Below are positions 5,598-12,011 of a stretch of 64,000 bases of DNA, piece after piece. The notes beneath the pieces are model-generated. The model was not told the origin of the DNA. It did not search any database and saw only the letters and a program-made list of their open reading frames with translations. The stretch is taken from positions 1-64,000 of the forward strand of contig NZ_VSKM01000011.1 of the NCBI RefSeq assembly GCF_008086175.1, given 5' to 3'. The translations under genes and the position numbers were made by a program. The stretch comes from Bizionia saleffrena. Lineage in GTDB: Bacteria > Bacteroidota > Bacteroidia > Flavobacteriales > Flavobacteriaceae. Positions within the stretch are counted from its first letter, which is position 1. Every line of letters begins with the position of its first letter.

Positions 5598-6251
5598 ATG
5601 AAAATAAATCCTCTTATTTATTTGTTCCTTTTAGTTTTTATCTCTTGTAATAATGATAAAAAAGAATCTGATAAAGACATAGATACCGATTCTGTAAAAA
5701 AAGAACTGACCAGTTATAATTATGTTTACGAAGGCGATTTGGAACGCGCCTATATTAAACATCGCATTATAGATTTAAAAAAAGAATTGGAAAGTTTAAA
5801 CGCGACAATCCAAGCAGGCAAAAACGATGAGAATAGCATCGTATTTCTCGAAGAGACCGAAGCAGAAATTTTAAAACTTAACAATGATTACCAAGCTATA
5901 ATACTCGTTAAAAAAGGAGTGCTGCCAATAATACCGCCGCCACCGCCGCCGCCGCCTGTTCCTTGTTTATGTTTTGATGTCTTTAATAGACTTAATCAAG
6001 TTGTAGCGACCAATACTGTTGTTTCGCTTTCGGCTACTTTAACAGACAACAATGGTAAAAAAATATTTTCTACCAAAGACATTATGCCAGAACCCATTTT
6101 AGATACGAGATTAGTAGTTTTCGATTTAAATACCGATTTAGAAAAATTTACAGACGAAGGCTTTTTAACCATAGAAAAAATAATGAAAGACGACTCTAAA
6201 AAAACATACGATGTTTCGGTTAGCGTACATCCTATAGAGAACACTCCTTAA
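5598..6251 (+). CDS. Hypothetical lipoprotein with a run of eight prolines
   Basis: I do not recognise the family. The 217-residue product begins with a lipoprotein signal peptide (VFISC lipobox). A charged, probably helical segment rich in Lys, Glu and Leu (about residues 25-105) follows, then eight consecutive prolines, then PCLCFDVFNRL and a beta-rich C-terminal domain of about 90 residues. The eight prolines, mostly CCG codons, would need EF-P for translation. The gene lies 77 bases upstream of the TPR-CHAT gene on the same strand, so cotranscription and a shared envelope role are plausible but inferred. Confidence 0.75.
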   Translation: MKINPLIYLFLLVFISCNNDKKESDKDIDTDSVKKELTSYNYVYEGDLERAYIKHRIIDLKKELESLNATIQAGKNDENSIVFLEETEAEILKLNNDYQAIILVKKGVLPIIPPPPPPPPVPCLCFDVFNRLNQVVATNTVVSLSATLTDNNGKKIFSTKDIMPEPILDTRLVVFDLNTDLEKFTDEGFLTIEKIMKDDSKKTYDVSVSVHPIENTP

Positions 6252-6328: not shown

Positions 6329-9115
6329 ATGGTTTTTAAACCAAGAAACATCACGTTTAAATTAATAGAACACAGCCTCATGTCGCTGTTTTTTATGCTT
6401 TTCACGATTTCTATTTGCGCTCAGAATGAAAGTGAAGATATACATAGCATGTTTAAAAAGATGACTACTTATATGTATACTAATAAGGACTCCACTTTTC
6501 ACTATTCTAACGCTATTGTTTCGGCCTCAAAAGACCCCAATACTTATACCAATGTGATTTACGCCTATTTATACGCCAACAAATCAGCGGCTTATTTTAA
6601 TGATTTCTGTACTTTAAAACGCAATATCGAAAAAATCGACAGTATTTTTAGTGCTCGCGAAGACGCTTTATCTCAACTTGATCGTTTGTATTATATAAAG
6701 AACTCGGCAAATTATGATAAAGGCGTTTATTTCTATAAGTTAAACGATTATACAAAAGCACGCGATGCACTAAAATCTATTATCGATGTATCACAAAGCG
6801 ATCCTAGAGCCATAAATAATAATCCCAATAACGATTTAGTTTATGGTGCCTACACAACAATCGCGAAAATGTATAGCAACGATGGCAAATATGAAATGGC
6901 AAAAGACTATTATAGCAAAGCGATTCGGTTTTTAAATACGCACGCAGAAGATGCATACAGTGTCTTTAAACTGAATAGAATTTACAGTTTAATTGGCGAA
7001 ATTTATAAAAAGCAAAACCAACCTTTAGTTTCTAATACCTATTATAAAAAATCGCTAAAACAAAGTATTGTTTTTAATAATGCTAATGGAATACTCACCG
7101 AAGCCAATACCATCGCAGAAAACTATATTTCATTAAAACTAACTGATAGTGCGGAATTCTATTTAAAACAGATGGCACCTTTTCTGGAGGACAGCAATCC
7201 GTATACGTATAAGTATTATAAGACAGTGGCACAATTGGCTCATTTATATAATGACACTGTTGCTGTGGTAGCTAATTTTAATAAGGCACTACTATTAAAT
7301 ACTGCTAAATGGAACACTAAAAAACATATAGAAACTGCCGAAATCTATCAAGAATTATCTAAATTCTATAGTGCTATTCAACAGTATCCTAAAGCGTTAT
7401 TACAAATAAATAAGGCTATAGAAAATGTTTCTGGGGATAACGTAATTTCTTCATCGGTAAACAATACAATGTTATTTCGGTTATTAAAGATAAAAGCACA
7501 GCTCTTAAATACAATTAGAGATTACGAAAACGCCCTAAAAACGGTACATCGCGCCGTTGCTATTTTAGACATTTTAAAACCCTCCTTTAAAAACAACACG
7601 GATAAATTATTATTAATTAACGACGCTTATCCTTTAATTGAAACAGGCCTGGATGCTACGTACAACTTATATGGAGAGACTAAAAATGAAGCATTAATTG
7701 ACCACGCTTTCTTTCTTACCGAAAAAAACAAAAGTGTACTCCTTCTGGATGCCTTGTTAACTAGCGAGGCTTTTACTTATGCCAACATTCCTAATCATAT
7801 TATCGAAAAAGAGCACATTTTAAAATACCAAATCACGGCATTAGAAAAAGAACTCAACACCAATACTAATACTGATAAAAAAGATGAATTATTCGAATTG
7901 CAATTGGAGTACCGAGAACTTATCGAAGGTCTTGAAAAAGACCACATAAACTATTACAATTTAAAATACAATCAAGACGTCGTTACCGCAAATCAACTTC
8001 AGAAATCCTTAAAAACTAAGGAAGCCATAATTGCATTTTTCTACGGTAATTCTTTCATCTACCGCATTACCATTACCAATTCTACTAAAGAACTGAAACG
8101 CATTCGCAATACTAAAGCACTTCAAACGTCCCTTTTAAATTTTCAAAAACTTATAAGTTCGCCGACTTCCAATCGTAAAAACTTAGCTACAATTTCTAAA
8201 GAACTTTTTGCTATTCTAATGCCGAAAACATTTGAACTAGAAAAAATTAAAAACTTAGTAATTATTCCTGACGGTTTACTCAATTATATTCCTTTTGGAG
8301 CGCTAGAATCTTTAAACACAGAATATAATTATGCGATCCAAGAATATGAGATTAGCTACATTAATTCGGCTACATTATTAGAGCAATTAAAGGGCAAAAA
8401 GAAAAACAATGGAAAACTTTTAGCCTTTGCTCCTACATTCGCAGGTAAAATTAGCACTCTTTTACCGTTACCCAATACAGCAAAGGAAATCCGAAGCTTA
8501 GCAAATCATTTTAAAAGTGATTTATATTTTGATACGCAAGCTAATTTGAAGGCTTTTGATACTTTAAGTAGTAAATACAGTATTCTACATTTGGCTACTC
8601 ACGCCGTTTTTAATAATTCTACCCCAGAGTACTCCTACTTGGCATTTAGCGCCAACATAAAAAATGAAAATCTGCTATATGTAAAAGACCTATATAATTT
8701 AAAACTTAATGCCGATTTGGTAACGTTAAGTGCTTGCGATACCGGGATGGGAGAATTAAAACGCGGGGAAGGCTTGCTCAGTTTAGCGCGCGGGTTTTAC
8801 TTTAGTGGCGCCTCGAGTTTAGCGAGTACGCTTTGGAAAATTAACGACGCGTCTTCCTCACAATTAATGGATGCATTTTACTCTAACCTAGCTTCTGGGC
8901 AACCAAAAGATAAGAGTCTCCAAGCCGCTAAACTAGAATTTATTAATTCTAATAAAGAAACGGGGTTGTCTCACCCTTATTATTGGTCTGGATTTATTAT
9001 TTCTGGAAATACAACCCCTTTACAAACAACAACAAATTATACAGTATATATAATAGGTATCGTCGCGCTTTTAATTATACTACTTTTAATTAAAAATCGG
9101 CGTAAATTAACTTAA
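6329..9115 (+). CDS. Secreted, membrane-anchored TPR-CHAT protein (putative caspase-like protease)
   Basis: The 928-residue protein has a signal peptide (hydrophobic segment ending ISICAQ, about residues 18-32) and a long TPR-like helical region (about 60-480). A coiled-coil-prone linker and a CHAT domain (about 610-890) follow. The CHAT catalytic pair is visible: His758 in LHLATHA and Cys803 in LSACDTG, followed by GLLSLARGF and a closing HPYYWSGFI. A C-terminal membrane helix (about residues 900-920) and a short KNRRK tail would anchor the CHAT domain in the periplasm. CHAT domains belong to the caspase-like peptidase clan. The 3' end overlaps by 9 bases the end of the convergent anti-sigma-like gene. 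A proteolytic role toward that neighbour is inference. Confidence 0.9.
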   Translation: MVFKPRNITFKLIEHSLMSLFFMLFTISICAQNESEDIHSMFKKMTTYMYTNKDSTFHYSNAIVSASKDPNTYTNVIYAYLYANKSAAYFNDFCTLKRNIEKIDSIFSAREDALSQLDRLYYIKNSANYDKGVYFYKLNDYTKARDALKSIIDVSQSDPRAINNNPNNDLVYGAYTTIAKMYSNDGKYEMAKDYYSKAIRFLNTHAEDAYSVFKLNRIYSLIGEIYKKQNQPLVSNTYYKKSLKQSIVFNNANGILTEANTIAENYISLKLTDSAEFYLKQMAPFLEDSNPYTYKYYKTVAQLAHLYNDTVAVVANFNKALLLNTAKWNTKKHIETAEIYQELSKFYSAIQQYPKALLQINKAIENVSGDNVISSSVNNTMLFRLLKIKAQLLNTIRDYENALKTVHRAVAILDILKPSFKNNTDKLLLINDAYPLIETGLDATYNLYGETKNEALIDHAFFLTEKNKSVLLLDALLTSEAFTYANIPNHIIEKEHILKYQITALEKELNTNTNTDKKDELFELQLEYRELIEGLEKDHINYYNLKYNQDVVTANQLQKSLKTKEAIIAFFYGNSFIYRITITNSTKELKRIRNTKALQTSLLNFQKLISSPTSNRKNLATISKELFAILMPKTFELEKIKNLVIIPDGLLNYIPFGALESLNTEYNYAIQEYEISYINSATLLEQLKGKKKNNGKLLAFAPTFAGKISTLLPLPNTAKEIRSLANHFKSDLYFDTQANLKAFDTLSSKYSILHLATHAVFNNSTPEYSYLAFSANIKNENLLYVKDLYNLKLNADLVTLSACDTGMGELKRGEGLLSLARGFYFSGASSLASTLWKINDASSSQLMDAFYSNLASGQPKDKSLQAAKLEFINSNKETGLSHPYYWSGFIISGNTTPLQTTTNYTVYIIGIVALLIILLLIKNRRKLT

Positions 9116-9832
9116 CTTATTTAATAACTTTTTAGCTTCTTGACGTTTGTAATTCTGTTGCCTTAAAACTAATTTGAGTTCCTTTTTGGCCCGTACGATA
9201 TCATTTTGTTTTAAATAAATTAACGCTAGATACCAATGTGATTCCCCAATAAAAGAAGAAGCTTCGGTGGTATTTTTATTAAGTAGTCCCTTTGCTTTTT
9301 CTAAGTCACCGAGTTCTAAATAGGTCTGCGCTTTATAAAATAAGATATATTCTTCAGGATTTTTAATAGTATTAAAATTAGTTAAAGCCATGTCAAAATC
9401 TTGAGCTTCGTATGCCACAAAAGCTTGACGTTCTATAGAATTTATAGTGTCGCTTCGGGTAATAGGAAACACAGTATTAGGATGTGTAACGTAATTAGTT
9501 GCGTATAATTCTACGGTATTTACACCAAAAAAAGCATCGTAGCCAAACCAGCTAGCCGACATAAATAAAAGTACTGCCGCCGCTATTTTCCAATTAAACC
9601 ATTGTGTTTTCTCATCAGATTCTTTACGCGTCTTTATTTCGGTTTCTAAGGTTTTCAATTTGGTTTTAAGACGCTCGCTTTCGGTCTCTTTTATCGCAAG
9701 TTTTAAGTTTTTTTCAAATTCAAATTGTGCCTTAAATTCGGCATCTTCAGCTAATAAACTCTCAAATAATTGTTCTTGATTTGGTGTTAAGCTGTGAGAA
9801 AAATAACCGTTTAATAATTCTTCTTTTTTCAT
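9107..9832 (-). CDS. Single-pass TPR membrane protein, anti-sigma-like layout
   Basis: The 241-residue protein has a cytoplasmic N-terminal part (residues 1-78, highly charged, starting KKEELLNGYFSHSL as in many Bacteroidota anti-sigma-like proteins). One membrane helix (about 81-100) and a periplasmic TPR-like C-terminal part (about 130-241) follow. The gene is 7 bases downstream of the sigma factor gene on the same strand, the usual place for an anti-sigma factor. No canonical zinc anti-sigma motif is visible, so this role rests on topology and context. The 3' end overlaps the convergent TPR-CHAT gene. Confidence 0.8.
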   Translation of the reverse strand: MKKEELLNGYFSHSLTPNQEQLFESLLAEDAEFKAQFEFEKNLKLAIKETESERLKTKLKTLETEIKTRKESDEKTQWFNWKIAAAVLLFMSASWFGYDAFFGVNTVELYATNYVTHPNTVFPITRSDTINSIERQAFVAYEAQDFDMALTNFNTIKNPEEYILFYKAQTYLELGDLEKAKGLLNKNTTEASSFIGESHWYLALIYLKQNDIVRAKKELKLVLRQQNYKRQEAKKLLNKLS

Positions 9833-9839
9833 TACAAAT

Positions 9840-10403
9840 TTAGTTAAGCTTTATGCGTTCTCTTAATGTTTTCATGCAACGCGATTTGGTGCTTTTTACT
9901 ACATTTTCGGTATTATAATCGCCTTGGCTTAAAATCTCTTTTATGGTGTATCCACGGTAATAAAACAAAGTGAGTAGTTCTTGGCATTGTTTACCTAGCG
10001 TTTTAAAATGTTTTTTAAGCAAGCGCTGTTGCGTTGTTAATGCTTCTGTCTCCATTTCAATGGTTTCACTAATTTTAGACTCTTTTTGTAATAGACGCAC
10101 ATCAAAATCTACTATTTCCATTTTATTACTTCTTTTTATCCTATCAAAAATCATAAACTTTCCTATACTAATAATGTAGGTAGAAACGCTACTAGTTAAC
10201 GCCTGCAATTTTCCACTCATTACATTAGTATAAAAGGCAATATAAGCGTCTTGATATACATCTATAATGTCGTCGTCTTCCAAATTATAGCGCCTAGCAA
10301 AATGAATAAATCTGGCCCGATTATTCTCGTAAATCTTTTTATAAATAATCTCCGATCCTTTTTGGAGGTCTTCAATTGTGATGTCTAAATCTAATGTACC
10401 CAT
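9840..10403 (-). CDS. ECF-type RNA polymerase sigma factor
   Basis: The 187-residue protein has the sigma-70 region 2 layout (about residues 30-90: FARRYNLEDDDIIDVYQDAYIAF, then TYIISIGKFMIFDRIKR). A linker is followed by region 4 (about 125-187: LGKQCQELLTLFYYRGYTIKEI, then NTENVVKSTKSRC). There is no region 1.1 or region 3, as in ECF sigma factors. It is first in an operon with the membrane TPR protein. The start is set by ATG at 10401-10403. A TGTTAACCTTTT motif (minus strand, 10420-10431) lies 17 bases upstream, suggesting autoregulation. Confidence 0.9.
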   Translation of the reverse strand: MGTLDLDITIEDLQKGSEIIYKKIYENNRARFIHFARRYNLEDDDIIDVYQDAYIAFYTNVMSGKLQALTSSVSTYIISIGKFMIFDRIKRSNKMEIVDFDVRLLQKESKISETIEMETEALTTQQRLLKKHFKTLGKQCQELLTLFYYRGYTIKEILSQGDYNTENVVKSTKSRCMKTLRERIKLN

Positions 10404-10419
10404 TAATGTAAATGCTTCG

Positions 10420-10431
10420 AAAAGGTTAACA
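10420..10431 (-). promoter_or_regulatory. TGTTAACCTTTT motif upstream of the sigma gene
   Basis: The exact 12-mer TGTTAACCTTTT occurs on the minus strand 17 bases before the sigma start codon. It is the inverted partner of the copy at 10478. ATTAA follows at the same 12-base distance seen in the other two copies, but here it overlaps the start codon. This may therefore be an operator or a very short-leader promoter. Confidence 0.5.
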
Positions 10432-10477: not shown

Positions 10478-10509
10478 TGTTAACCTTTTTATTTCCATAC
10501 TATTAAATA
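10478..10509 (+). promoter_or_regulatory. Candidate ECF sigma promoter of the DUF4412 gene
   Basis: TGTTAACCTTTT (10478-10489) is followed after 12 bases by ATTAAATA (10502-10509), 21 bases before the ATG. The same two blocks with the same spacing occur at 11385-11416. The blocks would serve as the -35 and -10 elements of the adjacent sigma factor; this is inference from conservation within the locus. Confidence 0.55.
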
Positions 10510-10530: not shown

Positions 10531-11367
10531 ATGAAACTATTTAAATTACTCCCCTTAATTATTCTTATGTGTGTTAGCACTTCTATAAACGCTCAGATTT
10601 TTAAAAAGCTAGGAAAAAAATTAGGCAAAGTTGTCGAGCGTACCATTGAAGGGAAAGCCGAAGAAAAAACAGCACGAGAAACAAGTAAAGCATTCGACTC
10701 TACATTTAATAATCCTTCAAAAACTTCGAAAACTAGCAGTCCTTTTAATATTATGGGTAAAGCTGAAGCTCCCGCTGGAAGCTACGCGTTTACCCATAAA
10801 TATGTTATGAGATTTAATGATGGTAAAAAGACTTTCGACATTACCTATTTCCTTTCCGAAAGCGGCAATTATATGGGCTCAAAATATAATTACGAAGAGA
10901 AAGGTATGGAGGATATGATTATGGTTATCGATGCTACAAGAAATACACTATTCACTTTTATGACTGTCGATGGCAAAAAAACGGTAATTAGTATGGGTTT
11001 CGATATAAACGATGCTCCCGAACAGGTCGAAACAGAACAAAACATTTCATTTAAAAAAACAGGACGCACCAAAACTATTTTAAAGTTTTTATGTGAAGAA
11101 TATACCGTAAAAAGCCAAGACTCCCAAGGTTCTATTTGGATTACAAAAGAAACTGAAGTGCGTTTTTTAAACCTGAAGCAACAAATGAAAGGCACTAAAA
11201 AATTCAATCAAAAATGGTTAAGTCTTGGTGACGGTTTAGTTATGGAAATGGATATGGTAGATACTTCGCGCCGTAAACCTAAACCAATGAAAATGGTATG
11301 TACTGCTTTAGAAACAATCAATTATACTTTAGACACTTCAGAATATGGGTCTTTGTACAAAAATTAA
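10531..11367 (+). CDS. DUF4412-like secreted protein
   Basis: The 278-residue protein has a signal peptide ending near SINAQ, then a basic amphipathic segment (FKKLGKKLGKVVERTIEGKAEEKT). A beta-rich domain from about residue 75 (AFTHKYVMRF onward) matches the DUF4412 pattern of a lipocalin-like fold with an internal CEEYTVKS segment. Molecular function is unknown. It is divergent from the sigma factor gene and carries the shared TGTTAACCTTTT/ATTAAATA element, so it is a probable target of that sigma factor. Confidence 0.75.
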   Translation: MKLFKLLPLIILMCVSTSINAQIFKKLGKKLGKVVERTIEGKAEEKTARETSKAFDSTFNNPSKTSKTSSPFNIMGKAEAPAGSYAFTHKYVMRFNDGKKTFDITYFLSESGNYMGSKYNYEEKGMEDMIMVIDATRNTLFTFMTVDGKKTVISMGFDINDAPEQVETEQNISFKKTGRTKTILKFLCEEYTVKSQDSQGSIWITKETEVRFLNLKQQMKGTKKFNQKWLSLGDGLVMEMDMVDTSRRKPKPMKMVCTALETINYTLDTSEYGSLYKN

Positions 11368-11384: not shown

Positions 11385-11416
11385 TGTTAACCTTTTGTAA
11401 AAAGTCCAATTAAATA
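11385..11416 (+). promoter_or_regulatory. Candidate ECF sigma promoter of the collagen-like lipoprotein gene
   Basis: TGTTAACCTTTT (11385-11396) is followed after 12 bases by ATTAAATA (11409-11416), 34 bases before the ATG. Sequence and spacing are identical to the element at 10478-10509. Confidence 0.55.
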
Positions 11417-11450: not shown

Positions 11451-12011
11451 ATGAAACATTTAGTATTAAAAACGAAGTATGTAGTATTAGCTTTATTAAT
11501 TAGTTTTAGCTTCTCCTGTTCTGTAGAAGACGGCGCAGATGGCGTTGTTGGTGCACAAGGCGAACAGGGTATTTCGGGAACTGATGGAATAAATGGCAAT
11601 GCCAATGTACAAGTATTAACTATAGATATGTCTACGGAATCAGGTTCGTTCGACGATAAATCTGTGCCAGAATTAACCCAAGATGTCATAAATAATGACG
11701 TCATACTAGGCTATATTAAAAGAGGCGAGATGTGGTTTCCTTTACCTGCTGTTGCCGATATTATTCCTTTTAGTGTTTCGATAACCATTACTGTAGGCAA
11801 CTATAGTTTAGATTATGTAGATGGCGTTACCGGAAGCTCATATAGTATTAATGCTGGTGATATTGATTTGCTTAAAATTGTAATTATAGAAGCATCCAAT
11901 AGTTCCAAAAACAGTAATAATAATCTAAACGCTTATGAAGAGTTATTGAACGCTGGCGTAGATGTAACTGATTTTAGAGCCGTTTGCGACTATTACGATA
12001 TTGCATACTAA
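11451..12011 (+). CDS. Lipoprotein with a short collagen-like Gly-X-Y segment
   Basis: The 186-residue protein has a lipoprotein signal with lipobox SFSC. A short collagen-like stretch (residues about 27-48: GADGVVGAQGEQGISGTDGINGN) follows directly, then a beta-rich C-terminal domain. Many Bacteroidota surface or envelope lipoproteins share this arrangement, and no function is assigned. Its promoter region holds the second TGTTAACCTTTT/ATTAAATA element, tying it to the sigma factor locus upstream. Confidence 0.75.
   Translation: MKHLVLKTKYVVLALLISFSFSCSVEDGADGVVGAQGEQGISGTDGINGNANVQVLTIDMSTESGSFDDKSVPELTQDVINNDVILGYIKRGEMWFPLPAVADIIPFSVSITITVGNYSLDYVDGVTGSSYSINAGDIDLLKIVIIEASNSSKNSNNNLNAYEELLNAGVDVTDFRAVCDYYDIAY

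Follow-up and report, generated by a model that had tools for sequence, protein, structure and literature searches.

What controls the extracytoplasmic function (ECF) sigma factor encoded within the first 64,000 nucleotides of contig NZ_VSKM01000011.1 of Bizionia saleffrena (hereafter the window)? The gene of a protease-like protein combining tetratricopeptide repeats (TPR) and a CHAT domain, called CHAT below, converges there on a two-gene unit coding for the sigma factor (SIG) and for a membrane TPR anti-sigma-like protein, labelled RSD. The initial annotation had supposed that CHAT cuts or binds the TPR part of RSD and so releases the sigma factor. Our gene calls agree with the convergent arrangement that it described, CHAT and RSD overlapping by 9 bases at 9107-9115. 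On the basis of sequence comparisons and models, we consider with moderate confidence that the periplasmic CHAT acts on the membrane anti-sigma factor RSD as its site-1 protease, the locus then encoding a caspase-controlled ECF sigma switch.

The association of the three genes was examined in 199 genomes of the same family (Flavobacteriaceae) and in 296 genomes of the phylum; in the family, a neighbour distance of 12 kb was used. RSD and CHAT matches were present in 84 and 89 of the family genomes, respectively; 115 of the 141 CHAT matches had an RSD match within this distance, and 114 of the 144 RSD matches had a CHAT match. From these 115 pairs, 78, mostly the better-scoring ones, were read in detail (80 stretches, designated by L numbers, entered this reading; L064 has no CHAT, and L082 neither RSD nor sigma gene). 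An ECF sigma gene was found directly upstream of RSD, on the same strand and at most 105 bases off, in all 78 CHAT-linked loci. CHAT is convergent with the sigma-RSD unit in 37 loci, on the same strand in 15 and divergent in 26, and the 3' ends of CHAT and RSD overlap in 25 of the 37 convergent cases. A contig scan of named relatives highlighted the convergent set in 8/8 loci, the closest named relative of RSD being that of Bizionia paragorgiae (71% identity); the scan used a single sequence as query, and an alignment might have reached further.

In the phylum sample, CHAT is nearby for 68 of the best 91 RSD matches (4 partial rows above the same score left out): 39 stand near a CHAT among the matches listed, 27 of 48 were recovered on reading the surroundings, and L063 and L186 complete the count. 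The last two of the 91, L184 and L185, have no CHAT in the stretch read. Twenty phylum stretches were chosen for a close RSD-CHAT pair or a strong RSD match and therefore give no estimate of frequency. When 17 RSDs first scored as CHAT-less were read, CHAT was detected beside four of them (L226, L232, L237 and L238), some others lying at contig ends; among three CHATs first scored as RSD-less, one (L240) has both sigma and RSD genes. The three genes form a conserved module across genera, beyond chance, and the neighbourhood that the initial annotation had seen in a single stretch of DNA is conserved in Bacteroidota.

Variants of the module were also encountered. The genome of the window (C53) carries a second copy of the divergent type (L063), in which sigma and RSD genes face a cluster holding CHAT, together with a retropepsin-like protein and a LuxR-type response regulator (both by eye). 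In another class of the phylum (L177 and L179-L184), sigma-RSD recurrently stands beside ScpA-, RuvB- or MetK-like genes (by eye), with one or two CHAT genes at a distance of a few kb in all of these seven stretches but L184, which has none. In L186 (4849-6333), a 250-residue CHAT match lacking the long TPR part comes after RSD in the same orientation. A single open reading frame (ORF) of L266 (9205-10176) matches both the sigma and the RSD profiles, so that the two proteins may be fused; no CHAT was present in the stretch read.

The CHAT domain (PF12770) was detected at residues 624-894, C-terminal to the TPRs, with an E-value of 3.6e-63 and 214 bits for a cut-off of 24. His758 and Cys803 are invariant in a set of 79/79 CHATs and in 134/134 paired CHATs, and the domain profile aligns them with a His and a Cys of the Csx29-type protein. 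The window protein has a hydrophobic N-terminus, a C-terminal transmembrane (TM) stretch and a positive tail. Over the 78 loci, a C-terminal hydrophobic stretch was found in 76, a net positive tail in 78 and an N-terminal stretch above a strict hydropathy cut in 47. Because of these three signals, the protease body should be located outside the membrane, on the same side as the RSD TPRs. Domain, dyad and topology signals are in agreement with the membrane-anchored periplasmic TPR-CHAT with intact His758/Cys803 that had been read from the DNA. The closest fold to the CHAT model (mean predicted local distance difference test, pLDDT, 87.6) is that of Csx29 (8eey_B, Foldseek 2.2e-15; 7y84_C, Z 32.1 over 559 residues), followed by separase and by DdvA (8rot/8rw5); separase 5fby_A superposes on the protease domain over 312 residues (3.4 A, Z 27.0). 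By sequence, neither the whole protein at E 0.001 nor the CHAT domain alone at E 10 matched an entry of the PDB, and only the CHAT domain profile reached Csx29-type proteins and DdvA (2.7e-6); with profile A2, the best 60 of 255 matches were all TPR-type proteins.

The gene before CHAT encodes a similar poly-proline lipoprotein in close relatives. In L098, L100, L101, L102, L119 and L136, a subtilase-like protein (by eye) takes its place, which suggests a protease cascade. The upstream gene is therefore a candidate input to CHAT, as a possible accessory or sensor.

The place at which CHAT could act was sought in RSD. A dipeptide [R/M/K]-[G/S] occupies positions 126-127 in 72 of the 78 loci; no other pair of RSD columns exceeds 14/78. 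In the window it reads R126-S127 and belongs to the segment joining the TM helix to the TPRs, a segment devoid of secondary structure in the model (mean pLDDT 67 for residues 121-130). This loop, and not the TPR domain, is likely to be the site of cut or contact by CHAT. The supposed action on RSD is thereby retained in outline and the TPR part as its target is given up.

RSD 126 covaries with CHAT 840. In 134 pairs, Arg126 goes with Asp in 105/105 cases, Met126 with Glu in 11/11 and Gln126 with Glu in 2/2; nine pairs with Lys126 have Glu (6), Asp (2) or Asn (1), and the remaining seven hold other residues. Among 69,930 RSD-CHAT column pairs, (126,840) ranks first by entropy-normalised mutual information (MI), with or without average product correction (APC), and fourth by MI-APC. 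The maximum of normalised MI-APC is 0.475 for RSD x CHAT versus 0.305 for SIG x CHAT, a control made of two proteins that the membrane should separate. After 840, the CHAT positions that couple best with RSD 126 on this scale are 720, 808, 714, 801 and 756, and three of them (756, 801 and 808) flank the catalytic residues in sequence. Linker columns of RSD are over-represented in the strongest RSD-CHAT couplings (32 pairs vs 7.5 expected). This enrichment is also compatible with a rather unlikely alternative in which the TPR superhelix or the catalytic cleft of CHAT only grips the RSD loop, a cue altering the grip in place of cleavage; TPRs are present in both proteins, and a TPR-CHAT body is also part of DdvA, a transmembrane anti-sigma factor of known structure. 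Mere binding does not need a His and a Cys kept in 134/134 paired CHATs, nor does it fit well with partners of RSD 126 that flank these residues.

Loss of CHAT offers another view of the proposed cleavage. In one group of RSDs, the Met subtype (loop motif DPGLPTTM), eight proteins have CHAT in the operon; they were picked by the string GLPT, and the CHAT signature TACETGKP picked the same eight. For five similar RSDs, the 12-14 kb read contained no CHAT. Identity over the motif reaches 0.94 within the CHAT-linked group, falls to 0.35 when the two groups are compared and is 0.21 within the CHAT-less one, whereas no drop is seen, in the same order, for the TPR part (0.46, 0.45, 0.53) or the cytoplasmic part (0.33, 0.36, 0.49). 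Loss of CHAT thus appears to go with decay of the loop motif in the Met subtype. L171, CHAT-linked but more distantly related, reads DPGLAVVM. A general dependence of the motif on a nearby CHAT was considered and rejected, as it holds in this subtype only.

Putative promoters of the sigma factor were then sought. The motif TGTTAACCTTTT is conserved upstream of the sigma gene in close relatives. Alone, it occurs five times in the genome, three of them at this locus (2 for the reversed control); one of the two others is located within a gene and the other has no ORF of at least 60 amino acids behind it. The bipartite form TGTTAACCTTTT-N10-NNATTAA, scanned as TGTTAACCTTTT-N(9-12)-ATWAA, has exactly three occurrences in the 3.28-Mb genome, all at this locus, where they precede sigma-RSD, the gene of an exported DUF4412 protein and a lipoprotein gene with a short G-x-y stretch. 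In ten genomes, 32 matches were obtained, 22 of them within about 6 kb of a module (own count), and the reversed control gave 0 in each. Genes behind the more remote matches look, by eye, like those of DUF4412-like proteins, G-x-y lipoproteins and adhesin-like proteins; at least one, L221, does not fit. The DUF4412 and G-x-y lipoprotein genes are likely targets of the sigma factor. The sigma ATG starts 16 bases after the -35-like element in the window and 16-18 bases after it here and in several relatives, so that the sigma-RSD transcript may be leaderless. The putative promoters, the two likely targets and the lipoprotein-like gene upstream of CHAT are additions to the initial annotation.

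In this genome, the bipartite scan detected no such promoter before CHAT or its upstream gene, which makes CHAT a better candidate for a regulator than for an output. The reverse case, quite unlikely in our opinion, would be that CHAT is an effector, either sharing the regulation of the sigma system or guarded by it, for instance one processing exported proteins, and that RSD has another site-1 protease. Such a role would suit L063 and L067, where a divergent CHAT is clustered with genes that mostly code for exported proteins, opposite the sigma gene, as well as a few relatives (L090, L092, L094, L101 and L165) that have a -35-like element, with 0 or 1 mismatch, before the operon running into CHAT; CHAT may therefore also be a target. 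It does not account for the pairing of CHAT with RSD in three gene orders or for the decay of the RSD loop in the one subtype where CHAT is lost, and it is opposed by the missing promoter here.

The link between RSD and the sigma factor completes the argument. The product of the sigma gene scores 53.9 bits with the sigma70-ECF model TIGR02937 (cut-off 42.9). TPRs were found in RSD by family scan, and the model shows a single helix at residues 80-101 behind a short, helical N-terminal head; one hydrophobic stretch was detected in 76 of the 78 RSDs, the window protein being one of the two below the cut. Gene calls, family scans and model bear out the description of RSD as a predicted single-pass protein with a cytoplasmic N-terminal part and a periplasmic TPR domain, encoded beside an ECF sigma gene. 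The helix layout of the modelled head is compatible with a class I anti-sigma domain, and the divergence of RSD is correlated with that of the sigma factor (rho 0.62). In mirror-trees, CHAT follows the periplasmic part of RSD (rho 0.43) more than the cytoplasmic one (0.28); little weight was given to this contrast because the sigma factor shows the same periplasmic preference (0.58 and 0.50). In L119, L136, L139 and L140, RSDs close to that of the window occur together with another CHAT subtype, a sign that partners may have been exchanged.

No family named anti-sigma appeared among 25 of the 58 Pfam families found for the 78 RSD members (DUF3379 weakly matched 6). The head profile, built on 39 heads, returned nothing relevant and no anti-sigma structure from the PDB. 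Foldseek gave no match to the RSD model at E 0.001 or better, the 50 weaker matches listed looking like TPR or designed repeat proteins. A head without detectable match to named anti-sigma families would be expected if RSD were not an anti-sigma factor but served the ECF factor as a membrane scaffold or co-activator; the lack of a sigma gene in the stretch read for three of the five CHAT-less Met-subtype RSDs is compatible with this too. We hold it for very improbable, since the sigma gene directly upstream in 78/78 loci, the short helical head followed by one TM helix and the correlated divergence all fit an anti-sigma factor.

Several observations weigh against CHAT as the site-1 protease of RSD, among them the unmatched head, the Met-subtype copies devoid of a sigma gene and the -35-like elements before some CHAT operons, already described. 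For CHATs L082, L239 and L241, the stretch read contained no RSD. All five Met-subtype copies without CHAT may belong to a single lineage, in which case the decay may be a single event, and in other subtypes Arg-Gly/Ser is retained by RSDs that lack CHAT (L222, L224, L229, L234 and several more in the phylum). One and the same RSD motif can be accompanied by different CHAT types (L119, L136, L139 and L140). In the covariation analysis, the plain MI-APC maximum for RSD x CHAT (0.356) is barely above that for SIG x CHAT (0.352), and RSD linker columns also score highly with SIG, so that the linker is partly a lineage marker. CHAT partners 714 and 720 of RSD 126 flank no catalytic residue, which lowered our confidence a little. 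The events are few: on either tree, both computed after removal of the columns in question, the P1 state changes 7 times and CHAT 840 changes 5 times, and independent pairs, which never disagree in direction, are too few for significance. Finally, in the available text of PMC9729208, D2151 of separase, the reader of P1 Arg, is equated with K670 of the Csx29-type TPR-CHAT. In our count on the profile alignment, the K670 column falls at CHAT 844, four residues from 840, so that a substrate-pocket role of CHAT 840 is plausible only.

Under the cleavage reading, the RSD head (about residues 1-78) would hold the ECF sigma factor at the inner membrane of the resting cell. CHAT, anchored by its C-terminal TM helix with the body in the periplasm, would stay inactive until a periplasmic or surface cue arrives, perhaps relayed by the lipoprotein, or in other subtypes by the subtilase-like protein, encoded upstream of it. 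It would then cut the RSD loop between TM helix and TPRs after Arg126, the conservation suggesting Arg, Lys or Met before Gly/Ser as P1 residue in most of the family; the TPR domain of RSD may position or shield the loop. The remaining stump could be finished by the RseP-type M50 protease, a site-2 candidate with one match in the genome (2.7e-53). The freed sigma factor would transcribe its own operon and the exported-protein genes from the bipartite promoters.

This scheme resembles the RseA/DegS/RseP regulated intramembrane proteolysis, in which a membrane anti-sigma of an ECF factor receives a first, periplasmic cut, as proposed here, and an M50 protease is likewise present in this genome. 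DegS is a PDZ serine protease, whereas the proposed site-1 enzyme of the module is a locus-encoded cysteine protease of caspase fold. With the type III-E CASP/Craspase system, in which Csx29 cuts Csx30 and Csx30 inhibits the CASP-sigma (PMC10028731, available part), the module shares a TPR-CHAT fold with aligned His and Cys, an inhibitor-type protein, whose inhibition is here presumed, and an ECF-like sigma factor. It differs in that CHAT is predicted to be exported and membrane-anchored, the inhibitor candidate is a membrane TPR protein and not Csx30, and the candidate site is Arg/Met/Lys-Gly/Ser. It differs also in the CRISPR context: no RAMP-family protein (PF03787) was matched in this genome (99.5% complete; controls positive in 4/14), and no CRISPR-like array was detected in the window at the settings used. 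The initial annotation had proposed a CRISPR-independent version of the CASP logic. The absence of a RAMP match supports the independence, and the logic itself is made credible by the Csx29-like fold, the invariant dyad and, more weakly, the CHAT-RSD covariation, its site of action being moved away from the TPR domain.

DdvA of Myxococcus xanthus is a transmembrane anti-sigma factor containing a TPR-CHAT body (8rot/8rw5). There, CHAT body and anti-sigma part belong to one polypeptide, in contrast to the two proteins from separate convergent genes described here. As far as the available texts go, its ECF factor DdvS is active once DdvA is inactivated (PMC4374960) and controls an anti-phage island (PMC12288465). 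For the present module an anti-phage role was dropped, because no PADLOC match at E 0.001 was obtained for sigma factor, RSD, CHAT, the upstream lipoprotein or the two target genes. ECF54 of Actinobacteria has CHAT and subtilase genes reported beside the ECF factor, a neighbourhood resembling the present one; in the portion of PMC8999054 at hand, this group is listed among those without anti-sigma factor and sigma proteolysis is proposed, whereas the present module includes a membrane anti-sigma-like protein. Eukaryotic separase, whose protease domain superposes on CHAT, cuts after Arg (PMC9729208, in part); its biology is different, and CHAT 840 lies close to the D2151-equivalent column without coinciding with it.

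Class I anti-sigma partners are stated, in the available part of PMC7406223, to stand beside only 6% of Bacteroidetes ECF factors versus 32% on average, and the module provides a concrete, widespread alternative to them in Bacteroidota. In the open-licence literature searched, judged by title or start of abstract, no description of it was found. Protease-gated sigma control is known; the novelty would be such control by an exported CHAT protease. More tentatively, and with doubts that outweigh our confidence, the modules could form a large undescribed Bacteroidota class of caspase-gated ECF factors, in which an exported TPR-CHAT recognises the P1 residue of a TPR anti-sigma (Arg, Lys or Met) within its juxtamembrane loop. 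This would be a general chassis with the CRISPR-linked CASP and the fused DdvA as specialised offshoots, and part of the answer to the control of Bacteroidota ECF factors without recognised anti-sigma partner. If true, caspase-fold proteases would serve ordinary signalling beyond CRISPR, with a hint at the origin of the CASP logic. The module is directly testable because candidate cut site, pocket residue and promoter are all named (Table 1).

Table 1. Position of the module, its candidate functional residues, promoters and neighbouring genes in the window.
Feature	Coordinates	Strand	Remarks
Lipoprotein-like gene	5598..6251	+	217 aa; lipobox-like N-terminus, poly-proline; directly upstream of CHAT gene
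TPR-CHAT protease gene, predicted periplasmic and C-terminally membrane-anchored	6329..9115	+	928 aa; PF12770; model with Csx29-like fold
Codon of catalytic His758 (CHAT)	8600..8602	+	invariance; alignment with Csx29-type His
Codon of catalytic Cys803 (CHAT)	8735..8737	+	invariance; alignment with Csx29-type Cys
Codon of Asp840 (CHAT), candidate substrate-pocket residue	8846..8848	+	covaries with RSD residue 126
RSD gene	9107..9832	-	241 aa; predicted cytoplasmic head (1-78), TM helix (80-101), then loop and periplasmic TPR domain
Codons of RSD R126-S127, candidate CHAT cleavage site	9452..9457	-	[R/M/K]-[G/S] dipeptide conserved in 72/78 loci
ECF sigma factor gene	9840..10403	-	187 aa; TIGR02937 1.6e-14; sigma70 region 2 (PF04542) 1.9e-5
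Putative sigma-dependent promoter, sigma-RSD operon	10403..10431	-	TGTTAACCTTTT-N10-NNATTAA
Putative sigma-dependent promoter, DUF4412 gene	10478..10506	+	match to bipartite TGTTAACCTTTT motif
Exported DUF4412 protein, likely target	10531..11367	+	PF14371 1e-7; promoter motif
Putative sigma-dependent promoter, lipoprotein gene	11385..11413	+	match to bipartite TGTTAACCTTTT motif
Lipoprotein with short collagen-like G-x-y stretch, likely target	11451..12011	+	PF01391 0.0059, below family cut-off; promoter motif

Beyond the two likely targets, the segment 12382-14159 carries a 37-kD nucleoid-associated-like gene (PF04245, 6e-35) and then a short AAA ATPase resembling the IetA/IteA anti-phage ATPases (PADLOC 2.2e-56; NCBIfam 173 bits, below the cut-off of 510). 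Look-alikes of both genes were seen by eye near the module in L159, and of the nucleoid-associated-like gene only in L160 and L161.

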